This document shows, one piece after another, positions 26,001 to 32,000 of a stretch of 64,000 bases of DNA. The notes beneath the pieces were generated by a model. The model made no database searches and was not told the DNA's origin. It was given only the letters and a program-made list of their open reading frames with translations. Within the stretch, counting starts at the first letter, position 1, and each line of letters begins with the position of its first letter. The translations under genes and the position numbers were made by a program. Source of the DNA: Corallium rubrum (Eukaryota; Cnidaria; Anthozoa; Scleralcyonacea; Coralliidae). The DNA lies in the NCBI GenBank assembly GCA_964035015.1, contig OZ035998.1, positions 38,598,559-38,662,558 on the forward strand, written 5' to 3'.

Positions 26001-29000
26001 GCGTTTTTGAAGCAGTTCAAAACACTCACATCACATGTTTTGTTTGACTCGCACTATAGTGCTCAAATTTTTCAACTTGATTCAAATTTTTAACCTGTTC
26101 GTGTTTTAAACATTACATACAGTAAAAACCCGCGTATACGAACCTAGGTTTTTTCAAGTTAGCCTAAAAGGTTCTTATATATTTGGTGTGTAGTGAGAAT
26201 TTAGGCTCTTATTTTCTTAAGAGAAAAACACTTGTCAGTCAATACTAGAACTAAGCACCTGCATGTACTCTGCACTGGTTGATAACTGTTACTGTTATTG
26301 ATAAGAGTCCGTAGTGTACTCACAGAAACGATATAAAATTTATAAACAGTATATTGAGGAAATTATTTGTGCACATGCAGTATATGTCTAATTTCTACAT
26401 TGAAATTACAAGAGATTCTACACAGTTTGGTTGCCATATAAAAACAGTTATTTTATTTTTGATTTTCCGAATAGGAACCTGTCTAACTCAGCAGGTTCTT
26501 ACATAATGGGGGTTTAAATGCCAACATTTTAGCCCAGTCTTAATCGCTAGGTTCGTATATGCGGGTTTTTACTGTATGGTATGATGCATCACATGCATGT
26601 ACAAAAATAAAGCAATTTCATTATTCAACCCAATAATAATTTTTTTTTTTAACTTTTTACAATAATATTTTAATATAGACTTTATGGACGTCGTTCTTTG
26701 AAAAGCTTGGCAATACATTTGTTTACAATGATGGATTTTTATTTTATTTGTTATGGCATGACATCGCTCTACCATGGAACCTACCTGATCTTGGTACTTT
26801 TGGTCGAGTGCTTCTTTGCGGTGTTTTAACATGAATTGCTTCAGCAGCTTTTTGGACGAAGAGAAAAAAACTTTTATTGTAAAATTGAATGCGAAGAGAT
26901 TAAAAATTCAATTAAAGATTACAGCTCACAAAAAATACTGTATGTAACGAAGAATCGACGTTAAACTCGCGTCATTATGTTTATACTGAAAAAAAGGGGG
27001 GAGGGGAAATCAGATAAGAATGGCGATAAGATATATAAATACGAAAATTATGATCGATGAATATAGGATAAAAGTGAAGCAAAAAATTTAGCGCGTACAC
27101 TAAGCCTTTGGAAATTTAGATTAGGCTTATAATGTCCCTTAGGCCCATTTCAGACGGCGTATTTTTCATGAGCCGTATCTAATACTAGAATTAAGTTCAT
27201 GAAAAATACGCCGTCTGAATCAATTAAATACGGCAGTTTGTATTAAGGTCGACCTAATTATTAAATACGGCCGTCGCGGTCGTATTATACGACTGTGACA
27301 CGACTTTGATTCAAACGACGTATTTTTCATGAGCCGTATCTAATGCATAAATTATACAGTAATGTTTAATGTATGATATTACCCACAGTTTGAATACGAA
27401 TATGGATTTCATTATATCCGACTCAATAAACGTCGTTTTTTGGTCGAAGTATGGTCGAACCAATTTGTATTAGATACGGCTCATGATAAATACGCCGTCT
27501 GAAACGAGGAGCTGCCGTTCATATGAGGCGGGCTAGCCCGGTTACTGGGCAGATTTTATGTCACGGAAATCTTATTACAATTATAAGAGTAATGCAAAAT
27601 GACATATTAAAGCAAAATTGCCTTCGTTTTGCTGTAAATATAGCAAACAGGGTAGTCTAAAATCTTTTTTTGAACCATAGGAAGATCTTTGTGACATAAA
27701 TCAGTCCGGTAACCGCGCTAACCCACCTCGTACGAACGGCCCCTACAGAAACAGAATTTTGTGAATTAGACAGTCAAATTTGTTCTTATATTTCTTAAAA
27801 ATTTGAAAAGGTCAAAGTCTTTAAGAAATAATTGATTTTAATAAATCTGTATCTCAAACCTCCCGGGTTGGCCCCTCCCACTTTACCGCCTGGCCTCCTC
27901 GCGTGTCCCCGTTATCCCTCACGAGCATCGAAAAACCTCCGGCACTCAGGGTAATGCAAACGAGGCAGATAAAACAAAGTGTTTACAAATTCTTTATGTT
28001 CAGTCAACATTATGACATTAAATTAAAGCAGTGGTTCCAGAGTAATCATCTTGCTTTGTTCTATTGGCCCTATTTATACCACAATAATAATAGGAAATGA
28101 TACCAACCAGCCTCTGCCAAAGCACTTTTTCTTTTAATTTTCTGGAAACTAAACACATCATGGCTTGAAATAGGAGTTTGGCTTAGTACAGCTAGAGAAG
28201 AAAAAAATAATGTGGTAATAATATTAATAAGGTACTATATATTGCCTATCACAGAAAACAAATTAAATTTCAAATGTATAACACATTTTATTATACATTC
28301 CGATTTCATTCTCGTTTCTTATTGTCTCTAATTAATTCTCAATCGGCAACTGCTACGCCATTTCCGCCGAATATTGAAAATTATTGGACGGCTGTGACGT
28401 CATTTCTGTCAAACACTATACACTTAATGTCTGCTCCCGAGGGAAACAGTTAGTTTTGTTTTCCCAAGAGTCTTGATATTTCCCGAGACGACGTCGGGGG
28501 AAACATCGAGACTCGAGGGAAAACAAAACTAACTGTTTCCCGAGGGAGCAGACATTAAGTGTTTTGTTATATAGCTTGAGTTTCGCTGAATACTTTCGAC
28601 GTTTATCAAGGGAAAGTACACAAAAGACAAACGCTCTAAAGACTTAACAAAACATTTCGCATGGCTCCGTAATTTCACTTCAACCAAACAAATATAAGTC
28701 TCAGAACAAAAGAACAGTAATACATTTCTCCAGTTAATCTTCACACATGCTTCGAAGACCTATAAATATTCTTTTTTTCGTACCAACATAGTCAATCGAG
28801 ATATGGTCTGGAAACTCGGCAAACTTCAAAGCGCCTATAATGAGCTGGGATTTTATGTTGAACCGTACCTTACACCGTGCACATCCTTTGTATTAGGTTT
28901 ATTAATATTTAAATAGCACGGTTGAGTGATTGAACTGAAACGTTGCTATTGGACAATTCGTTCATTATACTAAAATACAATGTGTTCAGTGACCGTACAC

Positions 29001-32000
29001 CGTGCACAAAAATGCATAAAGGCGAACAAAAAGATAGACCAAAGACTTTAGCTGAGTTTCCAGACCATATCTCGATTGACTATGGTACCAAACAAGCTTT
29101 TGTTTATAGGATGCCGTGAAGAGTTCAAAGTTCTAGCGGGCAACAATTGAAAACTTATTGACCGAGCAGGCAATAAGTTCTCAATTATTGCCCGCTCGGT
29201 AGACATTGAAATTTAGCTAAGGTCATGTGACCACAAACCAACCAATGACAGTCATCGTTGCATCCAGTGAAACTCTAGCTATATAACAATGTAAATTATT
29301 GAACGCTAATGACATCACTACCTCAAAGCGCGCGAAAATAAAAAAAATACAAAAATGGCTTGCAGTAAACTTGCCTCTGTTGACGAAGACAACTCTTTTT
29401 ACGCGAAATCTCCAAAAGGATTTGTGAAAGTCCCGAAGGGCGTGAATGAATAACTTTATTTAAGTGTCAATCTTATTATAGCTAATTGGGGAAGGCTGAA
29501 AGACTTTCACAAATCTTTTCGAAGCTTTCAGGAACATTTAATGTCATGGTGTTACTTTATAATAATATATGTTAACACAAATGTCCTAAAATTAGTGCAT
29601 TGTTCAGTGGCGAGCACGCGCAAACTCACGAAGTTGGTTCAAAATCACAGTTTGCACTAGCCTGCGTAGCAAGCCCTATTCTCTTCCCCAGCCCCCTCAT
29701 CAGTGCGAACCAACACCCCGAGATGAGGATCGCTATACACGCTAAGTTTACACTTATGTACGCCTAACTGTACTTCGATGCTGTTTTTTATAATTATACT
29801 TCACGAGTTCTCCTTTTCAATCAACAATGAATGTCTCACCTAATCTCAGAGTCATTTAAAACTGCTGAGTCAAGTCTCGCCTTTTCGTCTCTCGTTTCAC
29901 CATGAAACATCAATAAAAAAATGATGTGACACTTCACGCGAGTAATCGGTTTGCGCTGTAGCAAACCCTTTGAGCGCTTGTATAGAAGACCTTTTAGTCT
30001 CACTTACGTTTTTAAGGTTTAATAATATAGAGGGCAAAATTTCTCGAATATGATTGGCTAATGAAGAGGGCATTTTTTTGTAATTCAGGGCAAAATTACT
30101 TGCACTTGATTGGTTCCTTGATCAGCAGTACTTGCATGTGATTGGTCGCTTGGTTACTTAGCAACAGTGAACCTCAGAGGACTGACAATGTTTTCAACAA
30201 ATCTGCAAGGTTTTTCGGTCTGAAAATGCTTTTTTGTTTACTTTGAACTAATTTGAACTATTGAAGGAGTGTAAACTATTAGTGAAAATGAATACAGTAG
30301 AAAATTTACGAACTTTTGCCTGTGTTTACAAGAAGAAAGCTACATGCACAGCGATAGAGCGAGGGAAATTTGGAATGTTGCTGAGTAGCGACCTGCGACC
30401 GTGATAAGGTACATAGCTCTTAAATAATTTTGCCCGCTATATTATTAACACCTAATCGCATGAGTTCTCGTAAAATTAAGGTTTACTTTCACTCGTGTTT
30501 TCAAAATCTTACAAATTACCCTCGTCGCTTCGCGACTCGGGCAATTTTGTAAAATTTTGAAAACACTCGTGAAATTAAACCTTAATTTTCCTCGGCCCCA
30601 TGCGATTACCTATACGTATTTGGATGAACACCAGTAAGATAATGGAAAATAGCTTTAACATGCCTTTCAAATCTTATCCCATTCTTAAATTATTGGCTAC
30701 GCAATTTGAGCAATGACGTCACACGTTTTATGTGGAAGAAAGCGAAAAACCAATCATATCTTTGGATTGATTTGACTAAACTGCATCAAACGTTGGAAAT
30801 TTTCCTTGGGGTATGGTCAGATTACATCTGCAAGGTGTGGTTTCGTGTAGTTAAATCAATTCAAAGATATGACTGATTTTCCGTTTTCTCCCACATACAA
30901 CGTGTGACGTCATTGCTCGAATTGCATAGGCAATAACTCAAGAATGAGATAAGATTTGAAACTCATTGAAAGGCACGTTAAAGCCATTTTTCATTATCTT
31001 AGGTGTTCTTCCAAATACAATCTTAAAAAACTGAAGTGAAATTTCGTTTCATAGGCGCTTTAATACGCGAGTCGTTTTGCCACACGTGAATTCGTTACTC
31101 CGCCATGCATCAAAGCGTATTTAGTGTTTATTCTGTGGTATTTACATGGGTTTTAATTTATCGAACGTTTTATTACTACATTCTGATTGGTTGAGAGGAG
31201 TACAATTATTTTATGAATTGTTACTGCAGTACAATTAATAAAAATAGAGAAGGCCCTGGGAACGATGCTGACAATAAAATTCAAAATGGCGGTTAATTCG
31301 GCAATATATGCCATTAGGGAGAGACCTGCTCCGGCTTCTCATTGGTCGATAAATATAGTAACACTGCGATGACGTACTCAGATTTTGGAATGCATAACCG
31401 CTACATAGGTTTAAAATCGAATAGAAGCCAAGAGCGAGTATGATTCTCACTGATTACTGAGATTTTCTCATGGTAGTTCTTTTCAAATAAATTCTTGTTA
31501 CGTTATAAATTAATCCTTATTATTGCGAATTCATATAAAGTGCGATCAATGATCTGGTGACACGAAGCGACTCGAAATCTGAGTACGTCATCGCAGTTAC
31601 TATATTTATCGACCAATGAGAAGCCGGAGCAGTCTCTCCCTAATGGCATGTTCGGCAATGGAAAGTTTTCACATTTCCAACGACTTTCGTGGTACACTAT
31701 GAACTAAAAATTCCATGTAAATATTTTGAAATGAGTATAGAGAACACCCAGAGTGAAAATGTTTCTTGTCAAGTAATGGAACAAGATGTTTTTAAAGGCG
31801 TGAGTGAGTACGAAGCGTACGTGTGAGGATTTTGTCATGCATATAATAAATGAGTAATCATATGATTTTGCTCGTACAATTAAGGATTTACACTACTCGT
31901 GATATTTGAAAATTATGCCAAATTGCACTCGCCTAATGGCTCGTGCAATTTTGGCAAAATTTTTAAATATCACTTGTAGTATAATATACACTTAATGTCT

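Follow-up and report, generated by a model that had tools for sequence, protein, structure and literature searches.

Several elements of the P superfamily have been characterized together with the target sites that they duplicate upon insertion. For example, the Drosophila element 1360 is reported to target the 7-bp sequence GTTNAAC and the P element the 8-bp sequence GTCCGGAC (PMC3276498), and Galileo is reported to target the 7-bp sequence GTANTAC (PMC4168063). Miniature inverted-repeat transposable elements (MITEs) of P type are described from Anopheles gambiae with 8-bp duplications and copy numbers of 5 to 310 or 44 to 571 (PMC1562414), and a paper on coral MITEs presents elements with TTAA duplications (PMC2872659), which are of another kind than the one studied here. 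We analyzed a 298-bp element in a stretch of 64,000 nucleotides from Corallium rubrum (assembly GCA_964035015.1, contig OZ035998.1, positions 38,598,559 to 38,662,558 of the forward strand), hereafter called the window. Judged from its sequence, this element is very probably a non-autonomous, non-coding MITE of the P superfamily that would have been spread by cut-and-paste transposition, driven by a P-type transposase encoded elsewhere in the genome.

The first copy of the MITE occupies positions 28787..29084 on the plus strand and differs in 3 places from the majority sequence built from 46 copies. Its terminal inverted repeats (TIRs), at 28787..28817 (plus strand) and 29054..29084 (minus strand), match perfectly over 31 bp and at 95% over 37 bp; they consist of an outer CATAGT and an inner GGTCTGGAA, and the entire perfect repeat reads CATAGTCAATCGAGATATGGTCTGGAAACTC. 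The duplicated target GTACCAA can be read directly on the left (28780..28786) and on the right (29085..29091). Copy 2 lies in the opposite orientation (minus strand) at 33903-34200, or 33896..34207 when the GTTATAT duplications on both sides are included, and exhibits 97.7% identity to copy 1. An earlier interpretation made from the letters of the window alone (the sequence-only reading) had given copy 1 these boundaries and both copies a length of 298 bp, which proved exact. The repeat that surrounds copy 1 recurs at 31985-32548 with 95-97% identity, and this sister repeat contains a single GTAGCAA (32344..32350) and no element. The insertion at 28787-29084 is therefore real, and the preserved empty site that the same reading had claimed is borne out. 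The sole open reading frame (ORF) of at least 110 amino acids that overlaps either window copy, at 33598-34053, spans copy 2 into the flank. As a single DNA strand, the MITE folds better than shuffled sequences (z -7.5), as is implied by its inverted ends. Additionally, a 17-bp direct repeat (94%) around ACACCGTGCAC is present at 28867-28883 and 28992-29008, located 80 and 76 bp from the MITE ends, and could be a candidate subterminal binding site.

Analysis of the 474-Mb genome, with the exact end CATAGTCAATCGAGATATGG as the reference for the family, indicates that the MITE is abundant. Exact 20-base ends number 2066 + 2057 = 4123 and ends with at most two mismatches 3160 + 3124 = 6284, as compared with 0 and 6 + 7 = 13, respectively, for a control in which the end was read backwards. 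Because the control counts are near zero, the matches are not due to chance, and with two ends per copy they correspond to about 2,000-3,100 copies. Divergence from the majority sequence, measured in 46 copies with lengths of 200-320 bp after exclusion of four longer ones, amounts to a mean of 1.6% with a range of 0-4%. This sample was chosen by exact ends or best score, so the age of the family is underestimated by these values. Of the 46 copies retained on the basis of length, 32 measure exactly 298 bp, and the burst of the MITE looks recent. Two copies, L009 and L045, have mutually unrelated inserts at approximately the same internal place, near MITE position 116.

Target-site duplications were evaluated in 50 two-ended copies (L002-L048 plus the two window copies; four of the 50 exceed 320 bp) by testing lengths of 3 to 11 bp. 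A perfect duplication of 7 bp is present in 43 of these copies and one of 6 bp in a single copy; six have no exact duplication (L028 shows a single mismatch), and no copy has an exact duplication longer than 7 bp. Thus the 7-bp duplications noted in the window recur at copies elsewhere in the genome. These lengths bear directly on the idea that the element is a hAT-type MITE whose 8-bp duplications appear as 7 bp through mutation. The targets of hobo, a hAT element, are reported as GTNCGNAC and likewise start with GT and end with AC (PMC3276498), and the GT...AC shape alone would therefore not decide between P and hAT. However, an 8-bp duplication is found in none of the 50 copies, and ends related to those of the MITE precede P-type transposases, which makes a hAT origin very improbable, although no search aimed at hAT transposases was made. 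The duplications also vary in sequence, in contrast to the 3-bp, TA and TTAA duplications of PIF/Harbinger, Tc1/mariner and piggyBac elements, respectively. The exclusion of hAT and of these three groups by the sequence-only reading is consequently upheld.

The same reading had described the flanking duplications as beginning with GT. This is true of the four left ends that it cited, which in addition to copies 1 and 2 comprise an 898-bp related element at 57575-58472 and a 307-bp related MITE that starts at 63856 on the plus strand. The former (57568..58479 with its flanks) is bordered by GTTTAAC and GTTTAAT and is the copy for which one mismatch between left and right flanks had been noted. 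The latter (63849..64000 with its left flank) runs past the window end, and the sequence beyond the window completes it to a 307-bp element with GTATAAC on each side. A fifth and older relative at 24427..24705 (plus strand) is not GT-initial and has no recognizable duplication, with flanks of CTCTCAA and CATGCTC. Genome-wide, GT is present at the first two duplication positions of 508 + 502 = 1010 of the 4123 exact ends (24.5%), an approximately fourfold enrichment over the background of 5.9% on both strands of the window. Both consistent 7-bp flanks and a GT bias are thus found when flanking 7-mers are tabulated, but GT is enriched and not required. Among 100 flanks (the first 100 of 3394 selected for an exact end and no C at -15, all on contig C1), there is a T at -10 in 70, a T at -6 in 76 and an A at -2 in 72, and the opening dinucleotides are AT in 28, GT in 25 and TT in 18. 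Pooling both strands of 43 joined sites gives the palindromic pattern TNN-RTNNNAY-NNA, in which T2 and A6 within the duplication, together with the T three bases outside, are the stronger positions. The GT start is a preference, and it is one visible part of a symmetric target preference. We propose that the GT...AC bias stems from a symmetric target that would be read by the two halves of the transposition complex.

The element is short and non-coding, has TIRs and target duplications, and is present in high copy number with homogeneous length, as expected of a MITE. A Dada or Mutator-like origin was also considered, as the 6-7 bp duplications reported for Dada overlap the length seen here (PMC3706591). 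Dada elements are described in the same paper as being without TIRs and as having their definable copies in small RNA genes, whereas the MITE has 31-bp repeats and neither of the two window copies coincides with an RNA gene identified by Rfam or with a tRNA match. For Mutator-like elements, duplications of the nematode Tm1 are reported to be mostly 9 bp (PMC3169594). We consider an origin of either type to be more improbable still than a hAT origin. The P superfamily is indicated by the 7-bp duplications, by the palindromic target (as a preference only) and by related autonomous elements with a THAP/RNase H/GTP-binding transposase. The sequence-only reading had offered a P-like element, with duplications of 7-8 bp, as one possibility, and this suggestion is substantiated by the duplications and by P-type elements of the same genome that have related ends.

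A search of the genome with Pfam PF21787 (P-type RNase H) yields 129 matches. We sought the upstream end at 15 transposase loci, and the element on contig C15 alone was read at both ends. This full-length element (C15:1725520-1732238) is 6719 bp long, has CTTTATA on each side as a 7-bp duplication, and ends in CATAGTTAATA...GGTTTGGAAGGCCGG. Its exon 1 encodes a THAP domain (26.1 bits, cut-off 23.9), and a frame of 842 amino acids matches RNase H N with 81.3 bits and the GTP-binding insertion with 68.1 bits; the helix-turn-helix (21.1 bits, cut-off 23) and RNase H C (15.6 bits, cut-off 24) fall below their cut-offs. The sole match of the C15 transposase in the PDB is the Drosophila P transposase, 6p5a (E 7e-21). 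Residues D230 and E531 of the 6p5a chain, which we take to be catalytic, are aligned with D and E, and the alignment skips the stretch with the second aspartate. Clear upstream ends were obtained at five loci, CATAGTTAATAGAAAGAGAGACATGGTTTGGAAGGCCGG at C15, CATAGTTAATATAACCCACGGGGTTTGGAAGGCCGG at C143, C65 and C8, and CATAGTCCCTGGATAACAGTGTCTGGAAACGCGGCA at C182, with those at the latter four located by regular expression before the transposase ORFs. Looser ends were read by eye at eight more loci, namely CACGGTTAATAGAAGGGAG or CACGATTAATAGAAGGGAG at L085, L094 and L095, CACAGTTAATGAAAATAAG at L096 and L098, CATAGATAATAGAAGGGAG at L100 and L101, and CATAGATAATGGAGGGGGA at L080. P-superfamily elements of this genome therefore share the end architecture of the MITE. 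A further copy at C1:74.06 Mb (L090) has an ORF 99% identical to that of C15 and retains the C15 right end with one difference.

What is conserved across families is the outer CATAGT together with an inner GGTYTGGAA-like block, and the stretch between them varies in both sequence and length. The 307-bp MITE, which is 78.6% identical to the 298-bp MITE over 271 bp, matches the C15 right end with its left end (88% over 50 bp) and both C15 ends with its right end (91% over 34 bp). The 298-bp MITE itself matches the C15 right end with 82% identity over 33 bp (E 1.3e-4), and the right end of the 898-bp element does so with 77% over 53 bp. In end-to-end comparisons, the MITE left end scores 48 against the C15 right end, which is the highest value of all pairs (300 shuffles: mean 19.4, maximum 30), and 39 against C182 (shuffle maximum 31). 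A diverged MITE relative was also observed at L084:9087-9379, with ends CATAGTTAGGGAAGGGGGG / CATAGTTAGTGGAGGGGGA and an inner TGGTTTGGAA block.

Several results argue against a P origin of the MITE. The MITE left end scores 33 against the C15 left end (shuffle maximum 34), and the right end scores 30 against the C15 left end (shuffle maximum 36) and 31 against C182 (shuffle maximum 33), none of which is above shuffles; the MITE right end against the C15 right end (33) is barely above the shuffle maximum of 32. Either MITE end scores 19 against C143 (shuffle maxima 32 and 36). At two of the 15 transposase loci the architecture is incomplete, as no upstream end was seen at L099 and the first 36 bp are missing at L090. 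A close match to the exact MITE end is also lacking at the 30 loci that match PF21787 most strongly (L049-L078, each 3.3-3.4 kb and covering 1.5 kb on each side). Finally, two patterns were used to look for MITE ends that lead into non-MITE sequence. They returned 333 ends (the first 100 examined) and 24 ends (all examined), and in all 124 the 15 kb on the inner side are free of PF21787 places. Thus the transposase that moved the MITE was not found among them.

Most of the first 100 of the 333 non-standard ends prove to be MITE ends altered by small insertions or deletions, and for one of the 124 a PF21787 place lies at a distance of 6.3 kb on the outer side. A search for the 14-base end with at most four mismatches gave scattered, chance-like matches only, the 6 kb read beyond C143 did not reveal the right end of that element, and no convincing inverted ends with a 7- or 8-bp duplication (at most one mismatch) were found at seven transposase loci; in the case of C15, the far end lies outside the stretch scanned. 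Long copies between exact ends were rejected as masters, namely C1:2263500 (1894 bp), C1:5148507 (4297 bp), C1:5803630 (1518 bp) and C1:9596709 (545 bp). Among the long copies, L009, L011 and L045 proved to be MITEs carrying inserts and L010 a rearranged copy rich in simple repeats; no transposase is recognizable by eye among the ORFs of L009 and L010. A long P-like element with an open frame of 1007 amino acids (L079, L083 and L084, at C1:12.29, 45.87 and 83.0 Mb) was also set aside as a master, being much longer and having a different right end, with its left end beyond the stretch read. Two copies of this element are 99.96% identical over 8855 bp, with tandem repeats of approximately 222 bp at the left, and on the basis of this identity it was probably active recently.

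The long element with the same ends and a transposase gene that the sequence-only reading had asked for is thus represented by a P-type element with related ends, C15, but none with the exact MITE ends was found among the places examined. This result fits a variant that is compatible with a P-superfamily MITE, in which the transposase belonged to a P family other than C15 and the MITE was cross-mobilized, its own master being lost, located in a gap or in unexamined places, or different in its ends. The inner block GTCTGGAAACNCGGCA, which is common to the MITE and C182, points in the same direction. The top end score of the C15 right end speaks against this variant, as does the scope of the comparison, since both ends were read for C15 only and, with 100 of the 333 ends examined, an exact master may have escaped. 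We regard a non-C15 transposase as a real possibility, if one whose probability falls slightly short of even.

Returning to the P elements that share the MITE end architecture, we note that beyond its transposase the C15 element contains further open frames on the opposite strand, and that the elements at C143 and C1:93 Mb contain related frames. When the C143 frame was used as a query, 71 matches were obtained, and the loci of this second gene (ORF2) number 59 after merging. Transposase loci number 48 (merged from 62 matches in the 54 best-scored of 351 candidates), and an ORF2 lies within 12 kb of 36 of them, in all 36 cases downstream and on the opposite strand, with none within 12 kb at the remaining 12; these loci account for 36 of the 59 ORF2 loci. 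Examples of ORF2, annotated as a C2H2-like finger with a relative of the P transposase C-terminal domain, are located at L086:6056-6385 and L088:622-1119 (both minus strand), at L089:4180-4770 and 5269-5811 (plus strand), and at L103-L107. Five examples are single stop-to-stop frames of 362-439 amino acids with one C2H2-like finger each and share the region 'GPLSYIAGY...RGGL...LENVVKLYLRVRSFSYAKD'. A tblastn search with the C15 ORF2 frame retrieves the C-terminal part of single-chain P transposases of the same genome (27% over 95 amino acids, E about 1e-5). When a profile of six ORF2 sequences was compared with one of the final 240 residues of single-chain transposases (the latter of three rows that represent two distinct sequences, L049 and L081 being the same locus), the probability was 76% with E 2.2e-5 over 154 columns, and the score was 43.5 versus a maximum of 21.0 among 40 shuffles of the columns and 16.1 with the profile reversed; a smaller comparison gives 59% and E 9e-5. 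The 842-residue C15 frame aligns to residues 128-580 of an 806-residue single-chain transposase (25%) and stops soon thereafter, and is therefore without the C-terminal part.

The simplest reading of these alignments is that the transposase C-terminal domain sits in a separate convergent gene, with a putative joint function of the two proteins. Domain searches weaken this assignment. In none of the five ORF2 examined does the C2H2-like finger reach the Pfam cut-off (best 23.0 versus 25.2), the P-element C-terminal domain PF12596 is detected in two of five at E 0.06 and 0.07, which is below the cut-off, and PF22824 (THAP9_C) matches none of the five at E 1 and does match the single-chain L081. 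Additionally, comparison of the L085 ORF2 with the PDB gave nothing better than E 0.7. On balance we lean slightly toward a split-transposase lineage, in which gene 1 would encode the THAP/RNase H/GTP-binding protein and the convergent gene 2 a finger with a relative of the C-terminal domain. If both proteins are needed, the MITE would have been moved by a two-protein P transposase. If ORF2 is a working part, P transposition would join the two-protein DNA transposons and provide a natural case in which the C-terminal domain is separate from the catalytic chain. A description of a two-gene P transposon was not found among the titles and abstract openings of the literature matches listed.

The window contains other features besides the MITE and its relatives. 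Further long inverted repeats occur in the flanking composite repeat and its vicinity, at 28415-28567, 31988-32130 and 30660-30966, and are perhaps other fold-back-like elements. A tRNA-Thr (CGT) gene at 59820-59893 is the only Rfam match of the window at gathering scores.

The MITE is a new family of a known kind, as P-type MITEs and 7-bp GT...AC targets have already been described. The 14-base and 20-base end strings were not found in literature text among the matches listed, a search to which Repbase and subscription journals are outside and in which an occurrence as reverse complement only is possible. Like the P-MITEs of Anopheles gambiae, which are reported to combine P-element ends with a middle unrelated to P and whose masters have TIRs of 27-31 bp (PMC1562414), this family has P-type ends; it differs in having 7-bp rather than 8-bp duplications and a larger number of copies. 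Zebrafish Pdre2 is likewise a P-superfamily element with CATA-initial ends and internally deleted copies, but is reported with a 13-bp TIR and an 8-bp duplication (PMC10983969). The Drosophila P element has a perfect 31-bp TIR and a transposase with THAP, helix-turn-helix, RNase H and GTP-binding regions, but its duplications are 8 bp and its C-terminal domain is described as part of the same chain (PMC7776569). In contrast, many full-length relatives in Corallium rubrum appear to carry a transposase split over two oppositely directed genes. The fixed tip and inner block, with a middle of variable length, bear on how tolerant a P transposase is of end spacing. In target choice, the MITE resembles Drosophila 1360 and Galileo, which belong to the P superfamily and have 7-bp duplications at palindromic targets. 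These elements differ in the motif outside the duplication, which is ANAGT in the P-element group and AANGT in Galileo, as compared with a T three bases out in the MITE, and the comparison is one of targets. Thousands of sites place 7-bp duplications and GT...AC-like palindromic targets in a branch of the P superfamily that extends beyond Drosophila 1360 and Galileo.

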